NCBI GenBank assembly: GCA_030698575.1
Contig: JAUYMQ010000290.1
Coordinates: forward strand, 1 to 31,038
Source: Deltaproteobacteria bacterium
GTDB lineage: Bacteria > JAUYMQ01
Direction: 5' to 3'
Length of the DNA stretch: 31,038 nucleotides
Position 1 is the first letter of the stretch, and every line of letters starts with the position of its first letter. The notes beneath the pieces are model-generated. The model saw only the letters and a program-made list of their open reading frames with translations, searched no databases and was not told the origin of the DNA. The position numbers and the translations under genes are program-made. Positions 942-25,621 of this stretch are shown here, piece after piece.

Positions 942-2861
942 TTACTCCGAATGGCTCTTCTGCCCCGCCTCGAGGTCCGCCAGCAGCCGCCTCAGCGACG
1001 GGGCATCGGCCCCCTCGGGGCGCAGCGCCAGGGCCTTCTCCAGCTCGTAGCGGGCCTCTTCCGGGCCCGCGCCGCCCCGGAGGGCGGCCAGCCCCGCCTC
1101 GCGGTGGGCCTCGTAAAATCCCTCCTTCACCGACGCCGCGCCCCGGAAGGCCCGGAACGCTTCGGCCTGCCTCCCCTGCCCCGCAAGCGCCAGCCCCAGG
1201 TTGAACTCAGCCTCGGGAAACACGGGGCGGTAGCCGAGTGAACGCCGGTAGCGCGACTCGGCCTCGGCCAGCTTCCCTTCGGCGGCCTCCTGCACGGCGA
1301 TGTAAAAGTGGATGAAGCCGTAGGACTCCCGCACGCCCGGATTCCAGATCGGCGGCTCGGGCGAAACGGCGAGCCCTTTCCGGAAAACCTCCGCCGCCTC
1401 TGCCAGCGCCCCCTCGCGGACCCGGATGAAGCCGATGTTGAAGAACCCCCGCCCGTAGCGTGGCTCGAGCGCCACCGCCTTCTCGTAGGCTTCCAGCGCC
1501 TTCGGGTAGTTTCCCTCCCCGAAGTAGGTCTCCCCCAGGCTTCCCCAGGCGATGTGCGAGCGGGGGGCCTTCGCCACCGAGTCGGTCCAGAGAGCCCGAT
1601 CGCTCCCCCAGACCGGGACCCGGTGCCAGGTGAGGAGCGCCATGCAGAGAGCCACGGCGGCCACCGCGAACGCCCCCTGACGCGATTGCCATCCGCTCTC
1701 CCTCCCCACGCGCTCCCCTCTCTCCCCCGCCGGGGGCCTGAGCGCGGCGGCGAGGATGCCTCCCAGAGCGAGGCTCGGCAGGTAGAGATAGCGGTCGGCC
1801 TTCAGCACGGTGAGCGGCAGGAGGTTCGACACCGGGCCCAGCGAGACGAAGAACCAGAGCGACCAGAAGGCCAGGCGCGGCGCCCGCCGGACGGCCAGGG
1901 CCGTCGCCCCGAGCACGGCGGCGAGCAGCAGCAGCGCCGCGAGAAAGCCGCCTTCGAGCGGTGATCCGACCATTTCGGGGAAGTAGAGGTTGTTCAGGTT
2001 CAGGGGGAGAAAGAGCATCCGCAGGTAGTCCGCGAAGACGACGACCATCGTGAGGAGTACGCCCGCGCCCTGCCGCTCGACGTGGACGGCGCCGGCGCCG
2101 TGCTGCGCCCAGATGGTGGCCGCCCCGAGCCCGAGCGCCAGCAGGAAAAAGGGGACGATCTCGGCGATGCGCCCGCTCCGCCGCGGGCGGGGGTCGAGGA
2201 GGTATTCGTGGAGCAGCAGGAGGACGGGAAGCACGACCCCCATCCCCTTGGACAGCAGCGAGAGCAGGTAAAAGAGGAGCGCGCCGAGATATGACACCGT
2301 GGGCCACCGCCCCCGCGTGCCGGCCGGCGAACGATCGCGGTGCCGGAGGAAGAGCAGCAGCGCGGGAAGCAGAAAGAACATCGCAAGCGTGCTCTTCCGC
2401 TGGCTGGCCCACGCGACCGACTCGACCTGCACCGGGTGAAACGCGAAGAGGGCCGCGGCCAGCAGCGCCGGGAGGCCCGGCCCCGCCAGGCGGCGGAAGA
2501 GCAGGAGCGCGAAGACCGCGGAGCCCGCGTGCAACACGGCGTCGGTCAGGTGGAAGCCGCCGGCCACCGGGCCGCCGCGCAGCGCGTACTCGACGGCGTA
2601 GCTCCCGAGGTGCAGCGGCGCGTAGTTCCCGAAGTAGGCCCCGGTCCACCACGCCTTGAAGTTCTCCGGGGTCAGCTCGCGGATGAGGGGATTCTCGAGC
2701 AGGTAAAAGTTGTCGTCCCAGTTCAGGAAGGGATGGGACAGGACGCCGTGCCCGGCGCCCTGCAGGGAGGTGTAGAGCAGGAGCGTCAACGCAAACAGAG
2801 CCGCCGCTTCGCCCAGCCGCCTGGCGCGGCGCCGGGCCTCTCCGGCCGCGGGAGCGCTCAC
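942..2861 (-). CDS. TMTC-like membrane glycosyltransferase with C-terminal TPRs
   Basis: This 639-residue protein has an N-terminal multi-pass membrane region (about residues 18-420) and a TPR tail (about 430-630). The membrane part carries the GT-C-like signatures NWDD (47-50), FHPVQVESVAW (about 141-151) and DRYLYLPS (mid 350s). Eukaryotic TMTC O-mannosyltransferases share these, and their bacterial relatives are usually annotated only as TPR proteins. The first luminal/periplasmic loop with the acidic NWDD is the expected lipid-linked-sugar or catalytic loop. The gene starts with GTG at 2861, and a GTGA 4-bp overlap with the methyltransferase stop implies translational coupling. It is last in its unit; the repeat island follows. 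A role in glycosylating exported proteins or polysaccharide is inferred from the family. A paralogue with a VanZ fusion lies at 18972-21362. Confidence 0.8.
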   Translation of the reverse strand: MSAPAAGEARRRARRLGEAAALFALTLLLYTSLQGAGHGVLSHPFLNWDDNFYLLENPLIRELTPENFKAWWTGAYFGNYAPLHLGSYAVEYALRGGPVAGGFHLTDAVLHAGSAVFALLLFRRLAGPGLPALLAAALFAFHPVQVESVAWASQRKSTLAMFFLLPALLLFLRHRDRSPAGTRGRWPTVSYLGALLFYLLSLLSKGMGVVLPVLLLLHEYLLDPRPRRSGRIAEIVPFFLLALGLGAATIWAQHGAGAVHVERQGAGVLLTMVVVFADYLRMLFLPLNLNNLYFPEMVGSPLEGGFLAALLLLAAVLGATALAVRRAPRLAFWSLWFFVSLGPVSNLLPLTVLKADRYLYLPSLALGGILAAALRPPAGERGERVGRESGWQSRQGAFAVAAVALCMALLTWHRVPVWGSDRALWTDSVAKAPRSHIAWGSLGETYFGEGNYPKALEAYEKAVALEPRYGRGFFNIGFIRVREGALAEAAEVFRKGLAVSPEPPIWNPGVRESYGFIHFYIAVQEAAEGKLAEAESRYRRSLGYRPVFPEAEFNLGLALAGQGRQAEAFRAFRGAASVKEGFYEAHREAGLAALRGGAGPEEARYELEKALALRPEGADAPSLRRLLADLEAGQKSHSE

Positions 2862-3844
2862 CGGGCCTCCTGCCGATCGGCGGGAGCGTCTCCGGCCCGC
2901 TCGGCCCAGGCCTCGATGGTCCCCCCGCGGCGGACGAGCGATTCGAGCGTCGCGAGGAGTGTTGCCGGCGGCATGCCGAGCCAGTAGGCGGCCCGGGCGG
3001 CCAGCCGCCCGGCCGCCCTGGCCCCCGCCGTGTTCCCCTTCAGCGTCTCGTAGAGGCGGTTCACCGGCGCGCCTCCGCCCCCCAGGCGATTGAGCGCGCT
3101 CTGAAGAATGCCGAAGGGGTTCTGTTCGAAAGAGAAGTGGCCTACGTGCTCGACCCGGAACCCGGCACGGGAGAGAAGTGCGGTGAGCGAGCCGGGCGTG
3201 AAGTGGAACAGGTGGCGCGGCAGATCCAGATGAAACCAGGATCGGCCCGTCCAGCGCGCCTGGAAGCTGTCGAGATTGGGGACCGCCACCACGAGCCGGC
3301 CGCCGGGGCGGAGCACGCGGGCGGCTTCCTGAAGGGAGGCGAGGGGGTCGTGGAGATGCTCCAGCACGTGCCAGAAAACGCCGAGATCGAACTGCCCCGG
3401 TTCGAGGCCGGTAGTGGTGAGATCGCCGGCCAGCACCTCGATGTCCGATTGCGAGGTGAGGGCCCGCGGGCGGCGCCCTGCCCGCTCGGTGCCCACCCCC
3501 CGGAAGCCGAGCGCGGCGAAGGCCTCGAGGAGCCTCCCGTCACCGCACCCCACGTCGAGCACCCGCGCGCCCGGCGGGAGCCCCCGTGCCAGTCGCCGCG
3601 CCCTTCGCTTCGCCATGGCCGATCGCATGCGCTCGACCGTCGCGACGAACTTCGTCCCGGAGCCGCCGTAGTACTCGCTGGCGTAGAACGGAGCAATCTC
3701 GTCAGGCTCGGGTTGGGGATCGAGATACCCCATCCCGCAGCGCGCGCAGCGTACCAGCCGGACCTTGCCGAGGCCCGGCACGTCTGTCTCGATGACGGCG
3801 GCGCCCCCCTGCCGGTCACAGGCGGGGCAGGAAACGCTTCTCAT
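2858..3844 (-). CDS. SAM-dependent methyltransferase with N-terminal zinc ribbon
   Basis: A class I methyltransferase of 328 residues. Residues 6-36 carry CPAC...CARC, a four-cysteine zinc-ribbon-like knuckle, followed by the YLDPQPEPDEIAPFYASEYY region typical of this subfamily. Motif I is VLDVGCGDG (95-103), and FWHVLEHL marks the later strand/post-I region. Family members methylate sugars, lipids or small metabolites, so sugar methylation within the envelope locus is plausible but unproven. I place the start at ATG 3844. An in-frame TTG at 3859 would add five residues, but it lies at the foot of a strong hairpin (3862-3892). The 3' end overlaps the next gene by 4 bp. Confidence 0.85.
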   Translation of the reverse strand: MRSVSCPACDRQGGAAVIETDVPGLGKVRLVRCARCGMGYLDPQPEPDEIAPFYASEYYGGSGTKFVATVERMRSAMAKRRARRLARGLPPGARVLDVGCGDGRLLEAFAALGFRGVGTERAGRRPRALTSQSDIEVLAGDLTTTGLEPGQFDLGVFWHVLEHLHDPLASLQEAARVLRPGGRLVVAVPNLDSFQARWTGRSWFHLDLPRHLFHFTPGSLTALLSRAGFRVEHVGHFSFEQNPFGILQSALNRLGGGGAPVNRLYETLKGNTAGARAAGRLAARAAYWLGMPPATLLATLESLVRRGGTIEAWAERAGDAPADRQEAR

Positions 3845-3861
3845 GAAGACTCTGTTCAAGG

Positions 3862-3959: not shown

Positions 3960-6900
3960 CTACTTCTTCGCCTTCGCCGCCTTCGCCGCCAGCTTGGCGA
4001 GCTGCTTCAGCAGGCGATCCTGCTCGTAGGTCCTGCCGGGCGTCTGAACAATCTGCCGTCCGATGATCACCGAACCGACGAAGGCGTTGTTCACCGGCGC
4101 AAGGGAAGCGTCGAGGAACAGGAGTGAGACAGCCGGCAGCGAGGAGTTACGGTCCACCCCTCGTCCGAACACGATTCCCGTCGTGTTGTCGATGAAGGCC
4201 GTGAGCGAGATGTCGCGAACGGTGAAGTCGATCTCGCCGGTCGGCGACTCCATGCTCGGGCCGAAGAAGCTCGAGCTGTTCGGGAAGACGGCATCCACCG
4301 CCGCGTCGAGGGCATTGGCCGTGAGCCCGCCGTTGATATCCACGACGCCCGAGTTCACGCCGGTGCCGTTGATGGCGGCGAAGGCGTAGGGCATGCTCGC
4401 CGTCTCGAGGGATTCGATCGGCCGGCTGAAAGCGAAGACGTCCAGATCGGTGATGCCGATGGGCGTCAGCCGGACAGCCTGGTCCCCGGGCGCTGGCGGC
4501 GTCTGGAGAATTTCGTCGGGGCCCGGCTGAATGACGATCTGGAGCGGCACACCGCCGTCCAGCACGTCGTCGCCGCCGGGAGAGGTCTGCATGAATTCGT
4601 CCTTCCCGGGGGCCACAACGGACGCCATGCTCGCGAGCCCGGTTGTGCCGGGCGCGATGAGCTGCTCGTCATCCGAGGCAATGCCGGAGTTCACGATGCC
4701 GTTGCCACCCGTGCAGATCGAGTTCGCCGGGCAGGCAGCCGTGGGAACGGTGCAGCCGATCCCTAACGGGCGATAGTCCGTCGGGCAACTGGCGACGTTG
4801 GCCACCACGAGGGGGCAGAGCGCCATGATACCCGCCGTGCCCGTGCCCACCGTGTCGTCTCCCTGGGGACAGGTCTCGAGAACACCGTTGACCCCGGCCG
4901 ACACCCCGACGACATTCTTCGTCCATTTCTTGTAGGGAACGAAGTTGCTCGTCAGATCGGGCGTGCTGAAGGTCTGGCCGACGGCGACGACCTGCACGTC
5001 GTCGCCTCCCAGACCGCTCTCGGCCACGCCGTTCGCTCCGGCGTAGATGTTCATGCCGCGGATTCCCGAGAACACCCGATCACCCGCGAGCGTGAGCTGG
5101 ATGTCGTCGCAGCCCGGAATGGGCGTGCTGTCGGGCATCTGGCACGCCGTGGTCTGGACGACCAGGTCGTCTCCCGCGATGATCGCATTGTTGTTCTTCG
5201 GGTAGAGCCCGACGTTGATCTGAATGTTCCCCGAGATGAAGTTGTAGAGGTCCGTCGTGGGGTCGTCGTTCAGGATGTTATCGGTGGGAGTGTTCAGCGT
5301 GTTGACGCTGAACGATCCGGCCGGCGAGAACTTCGACCGCGAGCCGAGCGAGTAGATGTTGCCGCCCGATCCGTCCACGGAGATCTCGTTCGGCTCCGAC
5401 AGCGCGTTGAAGGAGATGTTGGTGGGGTCGGTGAGCAGCGCCGGGTTGTCGAAATGCTGATCATCCGGCGTGCCGATGTACTGGTCGGGCCCGGGGTAGA
5501 AATCCTGCGCGACGTGCGTCAAGCCAGTGACAAGGGTTGTCGGCGGGAGCGGGATCGGGACCTGGCTGGGGTCGAGCTTTGTGCTGAGCGTGTCATTCAG
5601 ATCGGTGAAGATCTGCAGCGTGGCCGCCAGCGACTTGCTGTTGTCGTTGAGGGTGGGATCGAAGGAGACCACCGCCCCGCCGAAGTCCGTCGTGGTGACC
5701 AGCACCTGCCACCCCTCGCCGTTGATATAGTCGCCCACGCCGATGCCGGTGATCTCGTTCAGCTTGAGATCGAAGATGCGCGGCGGGCCCGTGTGGGTGA
5801 ACGGATCGAAGCCGTTGAGATCCATCCAGACAACCGTCCCGCCGCGATTGGCGACCATGAGCGTCGGACTGTCGACGACCGTGTCGTCCCCGACGGGGAC
5901 TGAGTCGAGGAGGCCGTTGGGGCCTGCTTCAATCGACCGCGCGAAGGGCTCGCCCCGGCCGACGGGAATGTTCTGGATGTCGGTGCAGGTTCCAGGCGCC
6001 GCGGGATTACAAACGGGCGTTTCGGCGATGCCGTTGGGCCCGGTGGTGATCGTGTCGGGCGGGTTCGAGCCCGGAAGCTGCGGGTTCTCAGGGCTGGTGC
6101 CGCCGCCGATGATCACATCGTCGCCCAGGGGCGTCGTCATCAGGAAGAAGCCGGGCGGCTGCATGGGCGCGGGCGGAAGCAGCGCCGCGTCGATCATGCG
6201 TCCATTGGGGAACCCCTGGCCCACCGGCACCACGAGAATGTCGTCGCCGGCGACGGGTGTTTCGGAGATTCCGTTCTTGCCGGTGGTGATCCGCCCCAGA
6301 TGGGGCACCGGGAAGGGCGTGAGCGCCACCAGGGCCACCGGATCGGACACCAGCTCGGGCGTCAGGAACTCGATGCCCGCGGTGTTGGCGACGACCCGCG
6401 TGTTTGGAAGACCGACTCCCGTCGTCCGGCAAGCCGAGGGGCTTCCGCCGCCGCAGTTCGCGCCGCTGGGCTGCAGCCCGGTCAGCACGTCGCAGAAAGC
6501 GCCCTGAAACGACTCGTTGTTCGGCGGCGTGTTGAGGGGAACTTTCGTCGTCTGGACGCAGAGACCGAAGTCGGAGGTGGTGTTCATAATCTCGAGGGGC
6601 ACCTTGGCGATACGCCCCGTGTTCGACTCGATCACGTACAGCCGCCCCGCAGCCGTCCCGGGCGGATCCTGGTCCCCGCAATTGGCGGCGAGACCCGCCC
6701 CGGGCACGCAGCTGCCGGCGCCTGCGCCCGTGCAGCAGCTGAAGGGGATACCAGAAGCGGTGCAATTCGCATTGCTCTGGAAGTTGAGCCCGATGCACAG
6801 GGTTCGCGCGGGTCCGACATAGGCGAGGCCCGTGGGGTCGTCAATGAAACCCGGCTGCATGACGTCGCTCACCCGTTGGCGCCGGTACGAAATGGCCACG

Positions 6901-8759
6901 ATCCCGCCGTCTTTCCGGGTGGCGTAATAGACGTTGTCCTTCAGGTCGGGCGGAAGGGCCGGATTTGCCAGGCGCTTGAACGAGAGGTCGGTCCAGCCGA
7001 AGCCGCCGTACACGAAGCCGGCCAGCCCCGTCTTGAGGCCCTTCACGCTCTGCGCGGCGCCTTCCAGGCCCGAGATCACCCCGAGGCGGTTCGGCCCCGG
7101 CGTGGCGAAGCCCACGCCCAGCAGCTTGAGATCACCTTTCGGCAGGTTGTCGCCGTTCGACCCGATCGAGAAGCTCCCGTTGGAAAGGAAAGCCACCGAG
7201 CCCGAGACTTCGGGCAATCCCACCGGATCGACCATGTTGGCGACCGCCGGGTACATGGTGACCACCGCCTCGATGCCGATGGGCGCGCTTACCGTGGGCG
7301 CGTTCACGTTGGGCGAGAGAAGCGATGGAATGACTATTGCCACGTCATCATTCTCACGGGGGCCCGACTCGTTGGTCCGGTTGGCGCCGGCCTGGATGCC
7401 GGTGCCGTCGAAGCTCGCCTGGTCGCGATCGCCGGTGAAAGCATTGATGACACGGGGGAGCGACTGGAGGATGTTGTCGTCCCCGGGCCCGACGATCGGC
7501 GTGTCGATGGTGAGGCCACCCGTAAACTGATCGACGAGCTGCACATCGTCGCAGGGCGTGGTGAGGGGCACGCCCGCGGCGTTCTGGCACTTCGCGGTGT
7601 CGGCGTCGAGATCAGTTCCGGCGCGAACGTAGGATCGCGGCGGGGTCTGAAGGATGTTGTCGAGCCCGGGCCCGACCACGGCGATATTCGCATTGGCGAC
7701 GATCGTTCCCACGGCGACCAACTGCACGTCGTCGCAGGGGGCAATGGGAACACCCGTGGGAGACTGGCAGGCCGTGGTGTCTGAGTCGAAGTTCACCCCG
7801 ACGCCGGTTCCGGCGTCGCCACCCGAAAGGATCACGGGCACGTCGTCGCCGCCGACCGGGCTCTCGAGGAGCCGGTTGCCGGTGGCCTGGCTGGTCAGGC
7901 CGCCGCCGTTCAGAACGATGTTGGTCGGCTGCAGGAAACGCGCCACGCAGGGAAGCGCCTGCACGTCGTCGCCCGCGCGGCCGCTCTGGGACTGCTGGTT
8001 CGGCCCGGCGCAGATATTGTTCAGCGCGCATCCGCCGTTGGGGCCCACCAGGTCGTCGCAGAAGAAGGTGGTGCAGGGGTTGGTCTCGAGAATGCCGTTG
8101 GCGCCGGGACCCACGATCGGCGTTGTGGCGGCGGCCGTCGCGTTGCCCACGTTCACGAGTTGCACGTCGTCGCCGCAGCGGCCTGATTCAGCAATGCCGT
8201 TTACGCCCACGACGACCGTTTGGCCCGACTGGACGTCGTCCCCGGCCTTCTGGGTCTCGAGAACGGTGTTATTGCCGGGGGTGATGACCGTCGGATCGTT
8301 GCCGAGCAGGAAGTTCGCGTTGTTCTCCGAGTAGATCGTCACGTTGTCGGAGAGGCCGTCGCCGTTGTTGTCGGGGGGCGGATTCTGCGAATTGGGGAAC
8401 GTCGGGCGCTGGACGCGAACGACAGCACCCGGAGGGAAGCCGGGAACCGGCGGCAGGCCGCTCAAGTTGTTGTTCGTCGTCACCAGGAGGTCGGTCCGGT
8501 TGAGCACCTCGATCAGGGGCACCGTCGGGTTCGAGTACATGCTGAACCGGGGAATGACCTGGTTCACCATGCTGACGTCAGTCGGGGTACCGAGGCCGCC
8601 CGCCAGGATGCGGTAGTTGTACAGCTTCTCCGCCTTGACCCGGCTGCCCGCAACGGCCTCACCGTCGCCGATCGATCCCGGGTGGCTTGCGAGCACCAGA
8701 CAGGCCGCCGCGCCCGCGGTCAGAAAGACGATTTCGCGCCAACTGTGCTTCCCGATCAT
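3960..8759 (-). CDS. Giant secreted protein with ~17 acidic GPGxNGILET...GDDVQ repeats
   Basis: I do not recognise the family. The ATG at 8759 gives 1,599 residues, a GGGGG Shine-Dalgarno and a signal peptide (positive N end, hydrophobic 11-25, likely cut after AVA near 37). The frame is open for 27 more codons upstream, but those lack signal character. A short module recurs about 17 times: G-x-N-G-[IL]-x-[EQ]-[TS]-x(4-8)-G-D-D-[VI]-Q. Clear copies are at residues 162-176, 185-200, 217-236, 827-841, 946-960, 1241-1256, 1288-1302 and 1384-1399. A Cys-bearing variant, CQ-x(6-8)-PCDDVQ, occurs near 331-345, 391-406 and 1206-1221. A Ca-site-like DNNGDG lies at 130-135, and Cys-rich knots at 655-694 and 1325-1349. 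Regions about 500-820 and 965-1180 (for example GRLYVIESNTGRI) look propeller-like. The C terminus is Lys/Ala-rich with no PEP-CTERM or LPXTG signal. It is likely a surface or extracellular protein. Confidence 0.8.
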   Translation of the reverse strand: MIGKHSWREIVFLTAGAAACLVLASHPGSIGDGEAVAGSRVKAEKLYNYRILAGGLGTPTDVSMVNQVIPRFSMYSNPTVPLIEVLNRTDLLVTTNNNLSGLPPVPGFPPGAVVRVQRPTFPNSQNPPPDNNGDGLSDNVTIYSENNANFLLGNDPTVITPGNNTVLETQKAGDDVQSGQTVVVGVNGIAESGRCGDDVQLVNVGNATAAATTPIVGPGANGILETNPCTTFFCDDLVGPNGGCALNNICAGPNQQSQSGRAGDDVQALPCVARFLQPTNIVLNGGGLTSQATGNRLLESPVGGDDVPVILSGGDAGTGVGVNFDSDTTACQSPTGVPIAPCDDVQLVAVGTIVANANIAVVGPGLDNILQTPPRSYVRAGTDLDADTAKCQNAAGVPLTTPCDDVQLVDQFTGGLTIDTPIVGPGDDNILQSLPRVINAFTGDRDQASFDGTGIQAGANRTNESGPRENDDVAIVIPSLLSPNVNAPTVSAPIGIEAVVTMYPAVANMVDPVGLPEVSGSVAFLSNGSFSIGSNGDNLPKGDLKLLGVGFATPGPNRLGVISGLEGAAQSVKGLKTGLAGFVYGGFGWTDLSFKRLANPALPPDLKDNVYYATRKDGGIVAISYRRQRVSDVMQPGFIDDPTGLAYVGPARTLCIGLNFQSNANCTASGIPFSCCTGAGAGSCVPGAGLAANCGDQDPPGTAAGRLYVIESNTGRIAKVPLEIMNTTSDFGLCVQTTKVPLNTPPNNESFQGAFCDVLTGLQPSGANCGGGSPSACRTTGVGLPNTRVVANTAGIEFLTPELVSDPVALVALTPFPVPHLGRITTGKNGISETPVAGDDILVVPVGQGFPNGRMIDAALLPPAPMQPPGFFLMTTPLGDDVIIGGGTSPENPQLPGSNPPDTITTGPNGIAETPVCNPAAPGTCTDIQNIPVGRGEPFARSIEAGPNGLLDSVPVGDDTVVDSPTLMVANRGGTVVWMDLNGFDPFTHTGPPRIFDLKLNEITGIGVGDYINGEGWQVLVTTTDFGGAVVSFDPTLNDNSKSLAATLQIFTDLNDTLSTKLDPSQVPIPLPPTTLVTGLTHVAQDFYPGPDQYIGTPDDQHFDNPALLTDPTNISFNALSEPNEISVDGSGGNIYSLGSRSKFSPAGSFSVNTLNTPTDNILNDDPTTDLYNFISGNIQINVGLYPKNNNAIIAGDDLVVQTTACQMPDSTPIPGCDDIQLTLAGDRVFSGIRGMNIYAGANGVAESGLGGDDVQVVAVGQTFSTPDLTSNFVPYKKWTKNVVGVSAGVNGVLETCPQGDDTVGTGTAGIMALCPLVVANVASCPTDYRPLGIGCTVPTAACPANSICTGGNGIVNSGIASDDEQLIAPGTTGLASMASVVAPGKDEFMQTSPGGDDVLDGGVPLQIVIQPGPDEILQTPPAPGDQAVRLTPIGITDLDVFAFSRPIESLETASMPYAFAAINGTGVNSGVVDINGGLTANALDAAVDAVFPNSSSFFGPSMESPTGEIDFTVRDISLTAFIDNTTGIVFGRGVDRNSSLPAVSLLFLDASLAPVNNAFVGSVIIGRQIVQTPGRTYEQDRLLKQLAKLAAKAAKAKK

Positions 8760-8774
8760 GGAACCCCCTGGCTT

Positions 8775-8802
8775 GCCCTGTCGGTTGACCCCGACGCAGG
8801 GC
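8775..8802 (-). promoter_or_regulatory. Leader hairpin just upstream of the giant gene's ribosome binding site
   Basis: In the mRNA sense, two 5-bp helices (8798-8802 with 8775-8779, and 8791-8795 with 8780-8784) stack with a 2-nt bulge and a 6-nt loop. The structure ends about 15 nt before the ATG, abutting the GGGGG Shine-Dalgarno. It could affect initiation or mRNA stability. No known riboswitch consensus fits. Confidence 0.4.
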
Positions 8803-8988
8803 TTTTGTCGAGCAGGTTGCCTTCGGATGGCCGAGGCCAACTGGATAAAGAGAGCGGCGGGTTTTGGTGAGCGGCGTGAGCGTCAGCCTGGATGGCGCCG
8901 GCGCCGGAAGCGCCCTGGCCAGCAGGGCCCCGGAATGCCGGCCGGAGCATTACCCTTCCCGCTTGACCGATGGAGAACGGCGACGGGT

Positions 8989-9017
8989 ATAATAATAGAT
9001 GGCAGAGAGTTATGCAA
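8989..9017 (-). promoter_or_regulatory. Possible sigma-70 promoter of the giant gene
   Basis: TTGCAT (9017-9012) and TATTAT (8994-8989) are 17 bp apart in the gene's orientation. The -35 element coincides with the -12 part of the sigma-54 site, so the two reads compete. I favour sigma-54 because its match is longer, but dual use is possible. Confidence 0.4.
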
Positions 9018-9029
9018 ACCGCGTTCCAA
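9012..9029 (-). promoter_or_regulatory. Near-consensus sigma-54 (-24/-12) promoter
   Basis: The minus strand reads TTGGAACGCGGTTTGCAT. Against TTGGCACG-N4-TTGCA, only one position differs (A for C in GGCAC). GG at 9027-9026 and GC at 9015-9014 are separated by exactly 10 nt, as sigma-54 requires. Transcription would start near 9002 and give a leader of about 240 nt before the giant repeat-protein gene. An NtrC-type activator with an intact GAFTGA loop is encoded at 16173-17606 in the same window, which makes regulation by it plausible. Confidence 0.7.
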
Positions 9030-9059
9030 TTCTGGGGGGTTTTTAAAATCATTGTAAGT

Positions 9060-9165
9060 ATCTGAGTTTATTCAGATTTCTCCTTACCCACCCCGGTCGA
9101 TTGATTCGCGCTGCCGTCACCCCGGAGAAAACATTTTCCCATATTGTGACATCTGCGTTCTCACA
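9060..9165. promoter_or_regulatory. Cluster of inverted repeats upstream of the sigma-54 site (candidate enhancer)
   Basis: Three inverted repeats lie in this AT-richer stretch: ATCTGA-6-TCAGAT (9060-9077), GAAAA-2-TTTTC (9127-9138) and TGTGA-11-TCACA (9145-9165). The last two are about 100-140 bp upstream of the -24 element, the usual distance for NtrC-type activator binding. The half-sites differ from the E. coli NtrC consensus, so binding is only an inference. Confidence 0.35.
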
Positions 9166-9198
9166 GGCGCCGCACCCGCCTCTGCCATGCCGCCCCGC

Positions 9199-12724: not shown

Positions 12725-13480
12725 TCAGTCGAAGAGTGAATCGTGGCGAATTCCCTTCACGTGCAACAGATATTTGACGAGCGTTCCGAGGATGCCGAGA
12801 CCGTAGACGCAGCTCCTCCAGAACCCGACCGAAGAACTGTCGTGGTGGTACCGGGTCGGCACGGGAATTTCCTTGAAGCTCATCCCCTTCACCACGAGCT
12901 GGACCAGGATTTCGTTGTCGAAAACGAAATCGTCGGAATTGGCGAAGTAGTTGACCTGCTCGAGGGCCTCCCGGCTAAATGCCCGATATCCCGTATGAAA
13001 TTCAGAGAACCGCGTTCCCAGAACGACGTTCTCGACGCCGGTGAGCACCTTGTTCGCCACGAACTTGTAGAGCGGCATGCCGCCGCGGATGGGAGAGCCG
13101 AGCATGCGTGAAGCGAGCACAACTTCCGCTTCGCCGCGGGCGATGGGGGCGACCAGATCGGGCACGATAGAGGGATCGTACTGATTGTCGGGGTGGAGCA
13201 TCACGATGATGTCGGCCCCTTCCCTGAGGGCGCGCGTGTAGCAGGTCTTCTGGTTGCCCCCGTAACCCCGGTTGATCGGGTGTTCCTCCACGATGAGATT
13301 CAGATTCCGGGCGATGCGCACCGTGTCGTCCGCGCTCGCATCGTCGGTCAGGATGATAGCGTCGTAGGAGCCCTCGGGGATCTCCCGGTAGGTCTTCTCG
13401 AGAGTCAGCGCCGCGTTGTAGGCGGGCATGACGACGATGACCTTCCCGCGGGGCGCGGGAACTGGCTTCACCGCCTTCAC
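12725..13480 (-). CDS. GT2 glycosyltransferase (polyprenyl-phosphate sugar transferase-like)
   Basis: A 251-residue GT-A fold enzyme: VVMPAYNAALTL at the N terminus, a DD pair at 46-47 for nucleotide binding, RGYGGNQKT near 71-79, and the metal-site segment MLHPDNQYDP around 94-103. The C terminus has no trans-membrane pair, so this is the soluble, DPM1-like class that commonly loads a sugar onto undecaprenyl phosphate. It may supply lipid-linked sugar to the TMTC/GT39 membrane transferases encoded nearby (inference). The start is GTG at 13480, with a GTGA 4-bp overlap with the TPR lipoprotein gene. Confidence 0.85.
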   Translation of the reverse strand: MKAVKPVPAPRGKVIVVMPAYNAALTLEKTYREIPEGSYDAIILTDDASADDTVRIARNLNLIVEEHPINRGYGGNQKTCYTRALREGADIIVMLHPDNQYDPSIVPDLVAPIARGEAEVVLASRMLGSPIRGGMPLYKFVANKVLTGVENVVLGTRFSEFHTGYRAFSREALEQVNYFANSDDFVFDNEILVQLVVKGMSFKEIPVPTRYHHDSSSVGFWRSCVYGLGILGTLVKYLLHVKGIRHDSLFD

Positions 13481-15900
13481 CCCCCCTGCTGCTTCAGCGA
13501 TTCGAGCTCACCGCGCGCCTCGTCGGCCTCGGGGAAATCGGGGCTCATCTCGAGGGCCCGTGTCAGCGACTGCCGCGCGTTCTGCGTATCGCCGGCTTTC
13601 TTGTAGGCCAGGGCCAGATGGTAGTGAAGGGTCGCGTTCTTCGGCTCCTTCGCGATCGCGTCGCTGAACAGCTCGATGGCCGTCTCGGTGATGTTCTTCT
13701 TGTAGTAGATCCAGCCCAGCGTGTCGGTGATGCTTGCATTGTCGGGGAATTGCTCCTTGGCCGACTGTGCAAGCTCCAGTGCCCGGTCGATGTTGCCGCC
13801 GTGCTCCGCCAGGGTGTAGGCAAGGTTGTTCTTCGCCACCGCCGAGTCCGCATTGAGTCCGACGGCCTTCTCGTAGTGCTTGATGGCCTCGTCGTAGCGC
13901 TCCTGCCCCTCGTACAGGCTGGCCAGGAACATCTGCGCCTCGAAGGAGGCAGGGTCCTTCTCGATCGCCTTCTTGTACCACTTCTCGGCCTCGTCCTTCT
14001 TATCCTGCAGCAGGAACGCGTTCCCCATGTTCAGGTGCGTGATGACGAGATCCGGATCCTTCTCGAGGGCCGCTGCAATGGCCTTTTCCGCCTCCTCGAA
14101 CCGTTTGGATTTGATGAGGGTCTCGCCCAGAATGTTCCGGATGATCGCGTTCTCGGGGGCGGCTTCCACGGCGGCCTGGAGGCGGGTTACGGCCCCGTCG
14201 AGATTCTTCTCGAAGATATAGATGTTCGTGAGGTTGGTCAGGGCCTCCGAATATTCAGGGTTGAGTTCGAGGGCCTTTTCGAAGTTGGCCTTTGCCGTCT
14301 TCATGTCATTCCGCGTGCCGGCTATGATCGCCAGGTTGAACCACGCCTTGTCGGAATTGGGCTGTTGTTCGAGAAGTTTTTTGAAGTACTTCTCGGCCTC
14401 GTCGTAGTTGTTCTCGAGCAGGTAGGCCGTCCCCACGGCCTGAAGCGCCGAGGCGTTGTTCGGATCGGCCTTCAGGGCCGCCTCCGCCTGCTCCTTCGCG
14501 CCCTCCAAATCCCGCGTGCGGAGCGCCACTTCGGCCAGCGCCACGTGCGCCTGCTGGAACTTCGGGTTGTACTTCAGGGCCGCGTAGAGCTCGGTCTTGG
14601 CCTGTTCGAACTCGCCATTGCGATGATGGGAGATTCCCAGGAAGTAATGCGCCTGCGCGCTCACCGGGTTGTCGCGGACCACCTTTCGGAAGGCCTGGAT
14701 CGCCTCGGGGATGTTTCCGTTAATGAGGGCGAGGCGCCCCTTGAGGAACGTCCCCATGAGGTTGTTCGGATTTTCCTTGAGCATGGCCGTGACACGCGCC
14801 TCGGCGGTGTCGAGGTCGCCTTTGTTTATATAAGTCTCGGCGATCTTGACCTCCGCGGCCTCGTTCCCCTCGTCGACCTCCGCCGCCTTCTGGAACGCCG
14901 TGATCGCCTTCTCGAACTGCTGGTTCGCCGAGTAGAAGCCGCCGAGGACAATCCAGGGGTTGGGCTCCTTGGGATCGATCTCGGCAGTCTGCTTCAGGAC
15001 CGCCTCGGCCTCTTCCTTCCGCTTGCTGGTCGCGTAGAAATTCGCCAGGGCGAAGCGGAGGTTCATGTCCTTGGGAAGGTCCTCGATGGCCTTCTTGACC
15101 GCAGCTTCCGCCTTGTCCGGCATCTCGTTGGTCGTGTAGAAGTTGCCGAGCAGCAGCCGGAGGTTGGAGTCCTCAGGAAAATCTTTTACGGCGTCGATGT
15201 ACTCCGCCTCGGCCTTCTCAAGATCCTTCGTCTCCTGGTAGAAGCTCGCCAGGGAGATGCGGTTCCGGAGATCCTTGGGCTGCTTCTCCTTGATGAGCAG
15301 GAAGTATTTCTCGGCCCGCGGGAAATCGCGCTTGACGAAGAACATGTTTCCCAGGTTGTTGTAAGCGACGACGTTTTCCGGATCGAGTTCGATGACCTTC
15401 TCGTATTCGGCCACCGCCGCGTCGAAATCCTTCTCGCCCGCAAGCGAGCCTCCGAGGAGTAAATGTCCCTCGATGTGCTCGGGTTCGGCCTCGAGGACAA
15501 GCTCCGCTTTCTCCTTCGCAGACTTGAAGTCCTGGCTCAGAAGGAAGATCTTGCCGAGCTGGAGCTGCGCATCCATCAGCTTCGGATCGATCCGGACAGC
15601 CTCCTTCATCTCCCAGAAAGTCTTGTTGAGATCATTGGTCTGCAGGTAGGCCAGTCCCAGGTGATGGTGGGCCTCGGCGTTGTTCGGCTGGAGCTGGACC
15701 GCGTTCCGGTACTCGATGACGGCCTCGGCGAACTTCTTCTCCTCCATGTACGACTCGCCGCGGCTCATATGGTCCGCGAATTTTTCCTCGGCGCTCTTGC
15801 ACGCTCCCACCGCGAGAGCGACCATCGCCACCAGAAGCAGGCGGACGACCCAGGCGTGAGACCGATGATCCGCCCCACGACCCAAACTCGGGACAAACAT
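13477..15900 (-). CDS. PrsT-like TPR-repeat lipoprotein
   Basis: An 807-residue lipoprotein. The N terminus carries Arg/His-rich sequence, a hydrophobic segment (20-31) and a lipobox VGAC with Cys at 34. The remainder is about twenty TPR units, with typical spacing and motifs such as NNLGNMFF, AEKYFKKLLE and DTLGWIYYKK. Length, lipobox and location beside an exosortase and a sigma-54 regulator fit the PEP-CTERM-system TPR lipoprotein family (PrsT); that assignment rests on architecture and context. It probably scaffolds export or assembly of polysaccharide or surface protein at a membrane. I chose the ATG at 15900 because GGAGGT precedes it directly and the signal peptide follows; the open frame extends 68 codons upstream without such features. 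Confidence 0.8.
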   Translation of the reverse strand: MFVPSLGRGADHRSHAWVVRLLLVAMVALAVGACKSAEEKFADHMSRGESYMEEKKFAEAVIEYRNAVQLQPNNAEAHHHLGLAYLQTNDLNKTFWEMKEAVRIDPKLMDAQLQLGKIFLLSQDFKSAKEKAELVLEAEPEHIEGHLLLGGSLAGEKDFDAAVAEYEKVIELDPENVVAYNNLGNMFFVKRDFPRAEKYFLLIKEKQPKDLRNRISLASFYQETKDLEKAEAEYIDAVKDFPEDSNLRLLLGNFYTTNEMPDKAEAAVKKAIEDLPKDMNLRFALANFYATSKRKEEAEAVLKQTAEIDPKEPNPWIVLGGFYSANQQFEKAITAFQKAAEVDEGNEAAEVKIAETYINKGDLDTAEARVTAMLKENPNNLMGTFLKGRLALINGNIPEAIQAFRKVVRDNPVSAQAHYFLGISHHRNGEFEQAKTELYAALKYNPKFQQAHVALAEVALRTRDLEGAKEQAEAALKADPNNASALQAVGTAYLLENNYDEAEKYFKKLLEQQPNSDKAWFNLAIIAGTRNDMKTAKANFEKALELNPEYSEALTNLTNIYIFEKNLDGAVTRLQAAVEAAPENAIIRNILGETLIKSKRFEEAEKAIAAALEKDPDLVITHLNMGNAFLLQDKKDEAEKWYKKAIEKDPASFEAQMFLASLYEGQERYDEAIKHYEKAVGLNADSAVAKNNLAYTLAEHGGNIDRALELAQSAKEQFPDNASITDTLGWIYYKKNITETAIELFSDAIAKEPKNATLHYHLALAYKKAGDTQNARQSLTRALEMSPDFPEADEARGELESLKQQGG

Positions 15901-16020
15901 GAAACCTCCCCATCTAAAGGCCCGCCGCTCGTGCCGCGGGCGCTGGTAACCCTGGTGGCGTCCCTCGTGCGGGGCTCCCGGGTGGTTCTCCATGGAGACC
16001 CCGCCGCCAGGAAGACCGGC

Positions 16021-16049
16021 ATTATCGAGAAAAATCCCTCTGTTATCAA
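16021..16049 (-). promoter_or_regulatory. Strong sigma-70-like promoter for the TPR lipoprotein gene
   Basis: TTGATA (16049-16044) and GATAAT (16026-16021) are exactly 17 bp apart, each five of six to consensus. Transcription would start near 16014, about 115 nt before the ATG at 15900. It would let the lipoprotein and GT2 genes be expressed apart from the regulator gene upstream. Confidence 0.6.
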
Positions 16050-16172
16050 GGCGGTGTGATGACTTTTCCGCCCCCGGCCACAGGGGGGCCGGGAGAGCAG
16101 GCAATGTGCCGCCGCGGGCGGCCTGATTTCCTGCAAATTGGGCGGGGGGATAGCGGTAAGCGGACCGGCCCG

Positions 16173-17606
16173 TCAGCCGGGCTGCCCGGGGCCGGCCCCG
16201 TCGGGCGATCCGTCGTCAGGGGGGATCTTGCGGTTCTTGCGCCACTTGTCGCTCGTGATTCCGAGCTTCTGGATCTTGTAGTGAATGACCCGCCGGCTCA
16301 TTCCGAGAAACCGCGCCGCATCCTTCTGCACCCAGTTATTCATGCGGAGCGCCTCGAGGATGAGCTGCTTCTCCATCTCCTGGAAATCCACGCCGGTCGG
16401 AGGCAAGCGCAGTATCCCGGCCGCAGGCGCTGCGCGGCCCCCGTCATCCGGGAGAGAGAGGTCACGCGTCTGGACGGTTCTCCCCTCGGCCATGAGCGCC
16501 GCGCGTTCGAGGGCGTTCTTCAGCTCCCGCACGTTTCCAGGCCAGGGATAGTTCCGGAGAAGGGCCCGCGCGTCGTTCGAGAATCCGTCGATCCGCTTGC
16601 TCAGCTCCGTGGCGTACCGCTGCAGGTAGAACTCGGCGATAGCCTCGATGTCTTCGCGCCGCTCCCTGAGGGGCGGTATGTGGACTGAAACGACGTTCAG
16701 CCGGTAGTAGAGATCCTCGCGGAACTCACCCTTCTCGATCGCCTCCTGCAGATCCTTGTTCGTCGCGGCGATGACGCGCACGTCGACCTTGAGCGTCCGG
16801 GTGCTCCCCAATCGCTCGAACTCTTCCTCCTGGAGCACGCGGAGCACCTTCGCCTGGGTGCTGCCGCTCATGTCGCCGACCTCGTCGAGGAATATGGTCC
16901 CCTCGTGGGCCTGCTCGAAGCGCCCGATGCGCTGCCGGTCGGCGCCGGTGAATGCGCCCTTCTCATGACCGAAAAGCTCGCTCTCGAGGAGGTTCTCCTG
17001 GAGGGCCGCGCAATTGACCTTGACGAAGTGCTTCTGGCGGCGATGGGAGCTGGCGTGAATCATCCCGGCAATCAGCTCCTTGCCGGTCCCCGTCTCGCCC
17101 GTGATGAGAATCGTCGCCTTGCTCGGCGCGACCTTTCGCGTGAGGTCCATGACCTCGCGCATCCTCTGGCTCTGCCCGACCACCTTCTCCCAGCTGTAAT
17201 CCTTCTGGCGCTCGCTTCGAAGAAACTCGACCTCTCCCACCAGGCGGCGATGGGCCAGCGCCTTGTTCACCTTCAGCTCCATCTCTTCGATGTTGAAGGG
17301 TTTCTGGATGAAGTCGTAGGCCCCCTCCTTCATCGCCTCGACGGCGGTCGAGATCGTCCCGTAGGCGGTCATGACGATCACCGTTGTGCCGCCGTCCTTC
17401 CGTATCGCGGCACGCAGCACTTCGAGGCCGGAGCGCTTCGGCAGCTTCAGATCGGTAATGATGACGTCGTAGGCTGCCGCGCCCAGGCGTTCGACGGCGA
17501 CCCCACCGTCGGCCAGCTCGTCCACTTCGTGCCCGGCGTCCCGGAAGGCCTGGGCGACGCCGCGCCGGAGCGTGTCGTTGTCTTCCACCACGAGAATCTT
17601 CGTCAT
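16173..17606 (-). CDS. NtrC-type sigma-54-dependent response regulator
   Basis: 477 residues in three domains. The receiver (1-120) has Asp 52 as phospho-acceptor and acidic residues near 8-11. The AAA+ domain (about 143-370) has Walker A GETGTGKE (170-177), the sigma-54-contact loop GAFTGA (217-222) and Walker B with D241-E242. A Fis-type helix-turn-helix spans about 410-450 (KDAARFLGMSRRVIHYKI). All key residues are intact, so it should drive sigma-54 open-complex formation when phosphorylated. PrsR, the PEP-CTERM-box regulator of exosortase systems, has this same architecture; whether this is a true PrsR orthologue cannot be decided here. The gene overlaps the sensor-kinase stop by 4 bp (ATGA). 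A likely target is the sigma-54 promoter at 9012-9029. Confidence 0.92.
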   Translation of the reverse strand: MTKILVVEDNDTLRRGVAQAFRDAGHEVDELADGGVAVERLGAAAYDVIITDLKLPKRSGLEVLRAAIRKDGGTTVIVMTAYGTISTAVEAMKEGAYDFIQKPFNIEEMELKVNKALAHRRLVGEVEFLRSERQKDYSWEKVVGQSQRMREVMDLTRKVAPSKATILITGETGTGKELIAGMIHASSHRRQKHFVKVNCAALQENLLESELFGHEKGAFTGADRQRIGRFEQAHEGTIFLDEVGDMSGSTQAKVLRVLQEEEFERLGSTRTLKVDVRVIAATNKDLQEAIEKGEFREDLYYRLNVVSVHIPPLRERREDIEAIAEFYLQRYATELSKRIDGFSNDARALLRNYPWPGNVRELKNALERAALMAEGRTVQTRDLSLPDDGGRAAPAAGILRLPPTGVDFQEMEKQLILEALRMNNWVQKDAARFLGMSRRVIHYKIQKLGITSDKWRKNRKIPPDDGSPDGAGPGQPG

Positions 17607-18853
17607 TCGAAACTCTCTTGCGTAACCGTGTTCGCCGGAATGGGGGCTTCGCCGGGATTGCCGGCGAAAAGCGCCTCACGCTGCGCCGTGCGCGCCCACT
17701 GGGGCTCGGGCGGCCGGAGGGGAATCTTCAGGGTGAAGGTGGCGCCGCGGCCGGGCTCGCTCTCGACCTCCAGAAGCCCCCGGTGCTCATCCACCACCTT
17801 CTGCGCAACCGCCAGGCCGATGCCCGAGCCGGTCTCCTTCGTCGTGAAGAACGGGTAGAAAATCTTGTCGAGGGTCGCGGCATCCATGCCGCAGCCGTTG
17901 TCCTCGATTTCGAGTTGAACGGACTCCTCGTGCTCCCGCGGAATATCCGCCAGGCGGACCCTGCCCGCGGTGAGCTGCACCGTCCGTGCGTCGGGATCGA
18001 TGCTGACGACCCGGACGCGGACCCGCACAACGCCCTCCTCCGCTCCCTCGCCCAGCGACGCCTGCACGGCGTCGCCCGCGTTCAGGAGAAGATTGAGCAG
18101 CGCCTGGCGCACCTTCTGGGGATCCACCATGACCGGAGGAAGATTTTCCTCGTAGGCCCGCTCCACCCGGATCCCGGCCTCACTCCAGGCCGGCTCCAGG
18201 GTCCCGAGGGTTTCGTCCAGCACCGACTCAATCCGTGTAGGGGCCAGGTTCAGCGAGAGCGGTCGAACGAAGTCGAGGCAGTTCGTCACGATCTCGTTCA
18301 GCTTCCAGACCTCCGAGAGGATGGCGTCGATCTGCCCCACGTCCTCGGGAACCGCGAGCAGCCGGCGGCGCAGAAGGCCCGCGGTGACTTCGATGCCGGC
18401 AAGCGGATTGCGGATCTCGTGGGCCAGCCCTGCCGCCATCTGGCCCAGCGCGGCAAGCCGCTTGCGGAGGCGCTGGCCCTCTTCGTGCTGTTCGATCTGT
18501 GTCAGGTCCTTGAAGAAGATCGCCGAGCCGATCACATCGCCGGCGTCGTCGGTCACCAGAGAGAGACTGAAGCCGATGTTCTTCCCTTCGCGGCCGCTCC
18601 CCCGGATAACCATCTCGGCGCGGTTCGGAAGCCGGCGGCTCTTGAAAGCCTCGAGCAGCAGCTGCCAGACGTAGGCGTGCTCCCGGAGGACCTCCGGCGC
18701 CGGCTTTCCGACGATATCGGCGGGCGCACCGGCGATCTCGAGGATCCGCAGCGCGTTCTCGTTGATCGAGGTGATTTCCCCCTCGCGATCCATGGTGATG
18801 ACGCCGCTGCGCATCGACTCGATCACGTAGCGGTGAAAGCTCGCATCCGTCAT
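17603..18853 (-). CDS. Cytoplasmic PAS sensor histidine kinase (NtrB-like)
   Basis: 416 residues: a PAS domain (about 5-115), then HisKA with the phospho-His in LAHEIRNPLAG (His 145), and an HATPase with N-box Asn 258, DNGCGMD (318-324) and GSGIGLA (342-348). A roughly 50-residue stretch between the N box and DNG is longer than usual. No trans-membrane segment is seen, so the signal is cytoplasmic. This differs from PrsK, which as I recall it carries membrane and GAF regions. I use ATG 18853, 6 nt after a GGAGG; a TTG three bases upstream is possible. It is the cognate kinase of the regulator that it overlaps by 4 bp. Confidence 0.9.
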   Translation of the reverse strand: MTDASFHRYVIESMRSGVITMDREGEITSINENALRILEIAGAPADIVGKPAPEVLREHAYVWQLLLEAFKSRRLPNRAEMVIRGSGREGKNIGFSLSLVTDDAGDVIGSAIFFKDLTQIEQHEEGQRLRKRLAALGQMAAGLAHEIRNPLAGIEVTAGLLRRRLLAVPEDVGQIDAILSEVWKLNEIVTNCLDFVRPLSLNLAPTRIESVLDETLGTLEPAWSEAGIRVERAYEENLPPVMVDPQKVRQALLNLLLNAGDAVQASLGEGAEEGVVRVRVRVVSIDPDARTVQLTAGRVRLADIPREHEESVQLEIEDNGCGMDAATLDKIFYPFFTTKETGSGIGLAVAQKVVDEHRGLLEVESEPGRGATFTLKIPLRPPEPQWARTAQREALFAGNPGEAPIPANTVTQESFE

Positions 18854-18971
18854 CAACCGCCTCCTCTGAAAGTGCCCTCTCCCCGCGGCAGCCCCCCGGG
18901 GCCGCGCCGGTGCGGACCGGGCCGCGCTTCGCGCCCGCGCGGGCGGCGGGAAAAGTCGCGCCTTCCGGGAC

Positions 18972-24068: not shown

Positions 24069-24743
24069 TCAGAGCGAGGGCCGTTCGCGCATCTCTATGA
24101 TCTCGCCGAACAGCGGCACCAGATCGGCGGCGAAGCGACGGAGCCTCTCGTCGGCCTCGTCCTCGCTTCCGGGCGTCACCGTCGTCGCGACTTCGATGAA
24201 GCCGTTGCCGCCGCCTTCTCCCCGGATGATCTGTGATTTCAGCGAATCGAGCATCTGCGCCGTCCGGGATGCCGTCTGGTAGTTGCTCGACGAGAACCAC
24301 CAGTAGAGCACCACCTGCGTCGTCTGTCCCTTCCGCGCAAGGAAGCGGTTCGCCGTCACGTCGGTGCCCGGGAGCGTCTCCTCGACGGTGCTGGCGAGCT
24401 GCTGGTACTCGATGCTCCAGCCCTGGGAGGTGAAGCACACCTCCGGCTGGTGGGCACCCCAGCGGTTCGTCCCGTGAAACTGGGCGAACAGGTAAATTCC
24501 GTTCCCTTCCCCGTCCTCGTAGGTGCGCGAAACGTAGGCGTCCGGATTCAGGACATCCAGCACGTACTGCGGCATATCAAGATTGCCCTCGCTCGTCCAG
24601 TCGCCCACGCGCGCCGGAAGGGCATCCAGTTCGGGCGCCGCCTGGGCCTCGGGGTTGCGATACTTCAGGATCCCGGCGTTCGCAAGCGACGTCAGGGCCA
24701 GAAGGATGACAATCACCCAGCCATACTTTCGTGTCTTCGCCAT
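24069..24743 (-). CDS. epsI: EpsI-family exosortase partner (DUF3485)
   Basis: 224 residues with one N-terminal membrane anchor (about 8-24). The diagnostic block [12 protein letters not shown] spans 98-109, with H98 and C103 conserved in EpsI. EpsI proteins occur next to exosortases, either fused to them or as a separate gene as here. Their biochemical role is not settled; the His/Cys pair suggests an envelope function in periplasmic or polymer processing. The start at 24743 lies inside the exosortase gene, a 31-bp overlap. 61 bp separate it from the next gene. Confidence 0.88.
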
Positions 24744-25621
24744 TCCAGAAACCTGCCAATTCCGAAGAGAAGCATGAAGGCCACAACGAAAACGCTGAAG
24801 CCCGACATGTCGTGGATGATCGCGCTCCAGTCCGGCCCGCCGTTCTCGAGCCAGCTGTCTGACGGCAGCGTGGCGTCGACGCCGAACTCATAGCTCATGA
24901 GAGTCAGGAAGGTCACCCGCACGTAGTTCGCGGCGACGGCTATCGGGATTCCCGCCAGAAAGATCGAGATCCGCTCCCAGGTCTTCCCCTGATAGAGATA
25001 GGCGTAGACCGCACCCAGCGCCAGCAGCGCGAAGAGCGAGCGGATGCCGCTGCATGCGTCGGCCACCTCCAGTGCGCCGTTCGGGAGGTAGATCAGCGCC
25101 CCGTCCCGGTAGATCGAGATGCCCATGGCCGCGATGGTCGAGGTCGCGAGACGAGCCGCGACTACTTTCATCGCAAAGGTGATGGGGGTGAGAATGAACG
25201 TGAAGAGCGGGATCATGAAGACGAGAAAGACGATCGGGAACAGGACCAGCCGCAGGACCTTTCCGCCGTAGAGCGCAAGCACGATCCCCGCGATGAGCGT
25301 GATGAGCGAGTAGCAGGCAACCGTCTTGACGGCGCCCAGATTCGCCAGAAGGAGCAGCACCAAGCTCACGCCTGCCAGCCAGATCCCCGCCGCCGACGGC
25401 TGCCGCGGGGCCGCGGCGATGAGATCCTTCCTGCGCCAGACGAGGTAGATCGAGATGAGCGGGATCAGATAGCCGTGAGAGAACTCGGGGAGGCTGTCCC
25501 ACTTCTCCACCAGGTAGCCCGCGAGGGGGTAGTAGAGAAAGAGAACCCCGGCCGCGATCAGCAGAAGTTCGGCGATCGGAAGCGTCGCCATTCGGGACTC
25601 GGAAGTGGTTTCGGAACTCAA
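24713..25621 (-). CDS. Exosortase (XrtA/EpsH-type transpeptidase)
   Basis: A 302-residue polytopic membrane protein with about eight helices. The exosortase catalytic triad is visible: Cys 190 in ADACSGIRSLFALL, Arg 235 in AANYVRVTFL and His 270 in IIHDMSGFSVFV. Exosortases cleave PEP-CTERM-type C-terminal signals and are thought to attach proteins to the envelope. No substrate is apparent in this window. I prefer the TTG at 25621 because AGGAG sits 7 nt upstream; the in-frame ATG at 25591 lacks a Shine-Dalgarno and would remove ten hydrophilic residues. The subtype cannot be set without a search. Confidence 0.92.
   Translation of the reverse strand: MSSETTSESRMATLPIAELLLIAAGVLFLYYPLAGYLVEKWDSLPEFSHGYLIPLISIYLVWRRKDLIAAAPRQPSAAGIWLAGVSLVLLLLANLGAVKTVACYSLITLIAGIVLALYGGKVLRLVLFPIVFLVFMIPLFTFILTPITFAMKVVAARLATSTIAAMGISIYRDGALIYLPNGALEVADACSGIRSLFALLALGAVYAYLYQGKTWERISIFLAGIPIAVAANYVRVTFLTLMSYEFGVDATLPSDSWLENGGPDWSAIIHDMSGFSVFVVAFMLLFGIGRFLEWRRHESMAG

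Follow-up and report, generated by a model that had tools for sequence, protein, structure and literature searches.

The window analysed here, a stretch of 31,038 nucleotides from a deltaproteobacterial genome, raises the question of what drives the gene of its giant secreted repeat protein, and whether the control of that gene ties the protein to the exosortase encoded in the same stretch. From the exosortase down to position 942 the minus strand carries a run of genes: the exosortase, a glycosyltransferase, two sugar epimerases and a VanZ/TPR protein; then a PAS histidine kinase, an NtrC-type regulator, a TPR protein over the PrsT cut-off, a glycosyltransferase and two FadL-type outer-membrane proteins; and finally, after a 439-nt gap, the giant protein, a methyltransferase and another TPR protein. 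A search for RNA families and tRNAs found none in the window. The genes on which the argument turns are the following.

24713..25621, minus strand: exosortase of the EpsH family, below the cut-off of every specific subtype
17603..18856, minus strand: PAS histidine kinase, AtoS-like, partner of the regulator
16173..17606, minus strand: NtrC-type response regulator (REC, AAA+ with GAFTGA, Fis HTH), candidate activator of second choice
13477..16104, minus strand: TPR protein over the PrsT cut-off (TIGR02917, 449.4 bits)
3960..8759, minus strand: giant secreted repeat protein of 1599 aa with a signal-peptide-like N-terminus, the gene predicted to be driven
2858-3859, minus strand: methyltransferase, 3' of the giant gene
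942-2861, minus strand: TPR protein, 3' of the methyltransferase

Within the giant protein a G-x-NG-I-x-ET...GDD unit recurs imperfectly about 13 times, and the protein has no Pfam or NCBIfam match. We found no orthologues in 59 sampled genomes or in a scan of GTDB contigs, and the structure predicted for residues 480-1150 had a mean pLDDT of 31 and was unusable. A second protein with repeats of this type (GPDGI/ET...GDD...VGQG), cut by the contig end, is encoded on the minus strand of contig C51 (L085:1-1266).

A -24/-12 site before the giant gene

The DNA ahead of the giant gene contains these elements.

9012..9029, minus strand: probable sigma-54 (-24/-12) promoter TTGGAACGCGGTTTGCAT, a motif match with GG-N10-GC
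9055..9067, minus strand: IHF-like site ACTCAGATACTTA, one mismatch to WATCARNNNNTTR, between dyad and promoter
9060..9077, no strand: inverted repeat ATCTGA-ataaac-TCAGAT, overlapping the IHF-like site
9125..9140 (read 9140-9125), minus strand: putative upstream activator dyad GGGAAAATGTTTTCTC, perfect, 96 bp upstream of the sigma-54 site

A preliminary description had noted a near-perfect sigma-54 motif with exact GG-N10-GC geometry here, leaving its strand unstated. We confirm the motif and place it on the minus strand, reading from 9029 to 9012 with one mismatch to the sigma-54 consensus; the ATG of the 1599-aa protein follows 253 nt downstream. It is the sole match to TGGCACGNNNNTTGCW with 0-1 mismatches within the window. 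On an approximate sigma-54 matrix, whose maximum is 19.4, its score is 18.0 and that of the runner-up in the window 13.4. Looser matches showed no excess, as 32 sites with up to 3 mismatches were found in the window and 38 were expected from shuffles.

Chance similarity has to be weighed, since a single position underlies the claim for the giant gene and many windows were scanned for many motifs. Nevertheless, only 0.016 such sites are expected per window when both strands of first-order Markov sequence are counted, a figure that falls to 6e-4 for the 439-nt intergenic gap at its local composition, and the match lies in that gap, is oriented toward the giant gene and has a recurring dyad 96 bp upstream; we consider it very improbable that the resemblance is accidental. 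The site is thus very probably a real sigma-54 promoter of the giant secreted protein, with transcription predicted from the usual spacing to start near 9002. As the methyltransferase and TPR genes behind the giant gene (942-3859) are on the same strand and the 100-nt gap 3' of the giant gene contains no terminator-like site, the promoter may serve these two genes too, possibly within one transcript.

A sigma-70-like site, TTTGCA-N18-TATTAT (9018-8989), overlaps the sigma-54 site and matches 9 of the 12 consensus positions, 0.3 such sites being expected in the 600-nt stretch scanned. It could mean that the housekeeping sigma factor drives the gene and that the sigma-54 match is secondary, but its -35 is weak, and the dyad and the IHF-like site fit sigma-54. 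We regard this alternative as improbable, although both types of promoter could be present.

The leader downstream of the promoter contains a 64-aa open reading frame (8756-8950, minus strand) with a purine-rich stretch ahead of its ATG. Its stop codon and the start codon of the giant gene overlap as ATGA, which makes translational coupling possible, but the GC3 of the frame, 0.69, is lower than the 0.87 of real genes.

Recurrence of the upstream dyad

The dyad was found by comparing the DNA upstream of the window promoter with that of other sigma-54 promoters. The preliminary description had proposed scanning the full genome for -24/-12 sites, and in the window's genome (4.13 Mb in 653 contigs, 91.6% complete) this gave 21 TGGMACRNNNNTTGCW sites, whereas the reversed pattern occurred 3 times. 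Many of the sites precede plausible genes, which to judge by their translated sequences encode pilins, PilM, an AmtB-type transporter, regulators and secreted proteins. The genome encodes one rpoN. The sigma-54 activator domain is matched 24 times, in some cases partially or weakly, and the activators number about 20. Three secreted-looking SpvB-domain (PF03534) proteins on C15, C312 and C567 (L001, L009, L016), two of them near-identical, are each encoded directly behind a consensus sigma-54 site with no dyad.

The sequence GGGAAAATGTTTTCTC is common, as a dyad, to the window and the promoters at C335:2480 and C634:3604. Searching the genome with at most one mismatch to GGGAAAANNTTTTCYC returned 11 places; with up to two mismatches, 34 and 29 matches were found on the two strands, compared with 14 and 15 in the reversed control. 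A sigma-54 site lies 92-154 bp downstream of the dyad in 8 of the 11 places. The ninth, C335:10745, has a degenerate site, TTGCACGTTTCTTGCA, 191 nt ahead of a PEP-CTERM gene, and the other two are found on C296, apparently inside coding sequence, and on C433, 34 bases from the contig end. At a sigma-54 site density of 1e-4 per base, which exceeds the 2-6e-5 measured in the genome stretches examined, the probability of this co-occurrence is <1e-12, a figure that is flattered because the dyad was derived from three of these loci and those on C61 and C128 are near-identical copies. Without the three discovery loci and with C61 and C128 counted once, a strict site follows in 4 of 7 places, for which hand arithmetic at 4e-5 per base gives a probability of about 6e-8. 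In the genome stretches examined, a composite scan for dyad plus sigma-54 site picked out nine promoters and no other place, which leaves the sigma-54 promoters of pilin, AmtB and further genes outside the dyad set.

A second, weaker dyad is located exactly 21 bp from the first in four promoters and exactly 41 bp in two. Both spacings are close to whole helical turns, as would be expected of enhancer pairs. Most other dyad promoters carry two dyads and the window promoter carries one.

We also looked at the DNA between dyad and promoter. An IHF-like site is present within 95 nt of 6 of the 9 promoters examined, where about 8% is expected for each, an approximate value from single-base shuffles; the inverted repeat at 9060-9077 is absent from the other promoters of the dyad set. 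The genome's best himA match, on C76, scores 115.8 bits with the cut-off at 120.25. Where an enhancer serves a sigma-54 promoter, an IHF site usually lies between the two (PMC7962754), and the window promoter resembles a generic NtrC/NifA-type promoter of this kind in having the enhancer about 100-140 bp off with an IHF-like site between, whereas the dyad sequence and the gene set differ. The word TCAGATACTTA, common to the window and the C80 promoter, was at first taken for an activator site and fits an IHF-like site better. At the C80 locus (L116:3504-5179), which has no dyad, a perfect IHF-like site precedes a consensus sigma-54 site, and a gene with a TonB domain is found about 440 nt downstream of the latter.

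From this arrangement we infer how the giant gene, and perhaps also the two genes behind it, would be expressed from the sigma-54 promoter. The dyad, GGGAAAA-N2-TTTTCYC, some 100 bp ahead of the promoter, would be bound by an NtrC-type activator; IHF would probably bend the DNA that separates the two sites; and the AAA+ domain of the activator would remodel sigma-54 polymerase at 9029-9012, with transcription starting near 9002. The promoter would then belong to a small dyad-defined regulon comprising PEP-CTERM genes, other secreted proteins and the operon of a PrsK-like regulator on C70. Taken as a whole, this combination of sigma-54 promoter, dyad-binding activator, IHF and shared regulon is the best explanation of the locus, and we hold it with considerable confidence.

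Genes behind the dyad and the candidate activators

The genes behind the dyad promoters bear on the tie to the exosortase. The promoter at C335:2480 precedes one PEP-CTERM gene, that at C335:10745 three in a row, and that on C634 a 443-aa secreted protein and then two PEP-CTERM genes. Assuming that the operons are continuous, the dyad promoters would cover 6 of the genome's 19 PEP-CTERM matches (E up to 1). The promoters on C55 and C478 each precede a secreted protein, that on C478 being truncated at the contig end. On C70, a 7TM-GAF-HisKA-HATPase kinase lies on one side of the dyad and sigma-54 site and a REC-AAA-HisKA hybrid on the other, with an NtrC-type regulator after the hybrid. No clear gene was found behind the promoters on C61 (L107:1-330) and C128 (L108:2950-3282), near-identical copies of dyad and sigma-54 site at two contig ends that are possibly a repeated element or strain variants.

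Two exosortases are present in the genome, that of the window and XrtH on C634. The latter is a short exosortase over the XrtH cut-off encoded beside two DsbA-like proteins (L070:1-3100), and the same contig bears two PEP-CTERM paralogues along with its dyad promoter. Most PEP-CTERM genes of the genome have no sigma-54 plus dyad promoter, and we rejected the idea that all exosortase targets are sigma-54 dependent.

Sorting of the giant protein itself by the exosortase finds no support: at E up to 1, contig C317 gave no match to TIGR02595 (PEP-CTERM), and the C-terminus of the protein has no segment with a PEP motif, membrane helix and basic end. Even so, the proposed link between the giant protein and the exosortase/PEP-CTERM programme gains support, by a route other than the one first suggested, as the same dyad and sigma-54 site stand ahead of PEP-CTERM genes (twice on C335, and on C634). 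Surface proteins processed by the exosortase and the giant protein are probably expressed together.

Which regulator acts at the dyad is a separate matter. The window does encode, as described before, an NtrC-type activator with intact GAFTGA (16173-17606) and a kinase (17603-18856), and this pair (16173-18856), in the same locus and orientation as the giant gene, could activate the sigma-54 promoter. The pair is complete and AtoC/AtoS-like. On the other hand, the regulator scores 406.6 bits for PrsR (TIGR02915), below the cut-off of 502.6 that no regulator of the genome passes, and the kinase 68.7 bits for PrsK (TIGR02916), below the cut-off of 300; the operon of the pair has no dyad in front, whereas the dyad does precede the C70 regulator genes; and about 20 activators are available in the genome. 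Activation by the window's own pair therefore appears unlikely. Of the earlier interpretation, sigma-54 control and the exosortase tie find support, while the part assigned to the local regulator does not.

The position of the dyad ahead of the C70 regulator genes suggests that the C70 system controls itself. Self-control is common among such activators, and the position favours the C70 system as activator. Its kinase is the genome's best PrsK match at 176.6 bits, the next reaching 81.6, and is still below the cut-off of 300. The NtrC-type regulator of C70 has GAFTDA in place of GAFTGA in its loop, and its DNA-binding domain lies past the contig end, for which we found no overlapping contig; both features keep the role of C70 conditional. 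The C70 regulator is more likely than the window regulator to activate the dyad promoters, and we lean slightly toward it, other activators of the genome also being possible candidates. Relatives of the C70 kinase at 12 loci are at most 40% identical and thus too distant to serve as a test of the dyad; none has the dyad adjoining a sigma-54 site. The REC-AAA-HisKA hybrid of C70 (L111:2514-4448) matches the sigma-54 activator domain only weakly.

Comparison with known exosortase-associated control

Haft 2006 (PMC1569441) described an activator motif and a sigma-54 site before PEP-CTERM genes in Proteobacteria only, the other PEP-CTERM-bearing phyla then studied being reported without this arrangement. 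The motif 1 of that study is 17 nt long, ends in TTTACA and lies 32-92 nt (about 63) before the sigma-54 site. The promoters described here are similar in having an activator motif upstream of a -24/-12 site at PEP-CTERM genes, in large intergenic regions, and the genome resembles those with the PrsK/PrsR/PrsT system in encoding an NtrC-type regulator and kinase, exosortase genes and a PrsT-like TPR protein. The last (13477-16104) reaches its 449.4 bits for TIGR02917, against a cut-off of 312.2, in five stretches, and the score may partly mirror generic TPR repeats.

There are also differences from that system. GGGAAAA-N2-TTTTCCC takes the place of the 17-nt motif as enhancer, and the TTTACA with which that motif ends is absent from the coding strand of 9030-9198; dyad and promoter are 92-154 bp apart and not about 63; the regulators are below the PrsR and PrsK cut-offs; and the gene set includes secreted proteins without PEP-CTERM. 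Several points count against our explanation of the locus: the 253 nt from the site to the ATG of the giant gene exceed the mean of 71 of the described PEP-CTERM promoters (PMC1569441), the window promoter has a single dyad, a sigma-70-like site overlaps it, and such a promoter is missing from most PEP-CTERM genes of the genome. An experimentally tested case is pepA of the proteobacterium Aquincola tertiaricarbonis, a PEP-CTERM gene whose -24/-12 promoter has been mapped, whose transcription needs rpoN1 and which has an enhancer upstream (PMC9850573); the window gene, unlike pepA, is not a PEP-CTERM gene, and its promoter is predicted. In the literature searched, we did not find the dyad described.

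The dyad promoters may accordingly be read as an undescribed exosortase-associated sigma-54 regulon, a reading to which we give about an even chance. Its enhancer would be GGGAAAA-N2-TTTTCCC, present singly or as tandem copies at 21 or 41 bp, and its control would lie with a PrsK-like 7TM-GAF kinase system that governs its own genes too. PEP-CTERM proteins would thereby be expressed along with very large secreted proteins left unsorted by the exosortase. Such control would follow the same logic as the proteobacterial sigma-54 control of exosortase substrates, using a different enhancer. The dyad directly identifies surface genes that are candidates for co-regulation and points to a testable regulator, and it would assign to a physiological programme a giant secreted protein that otherwise defies classification.
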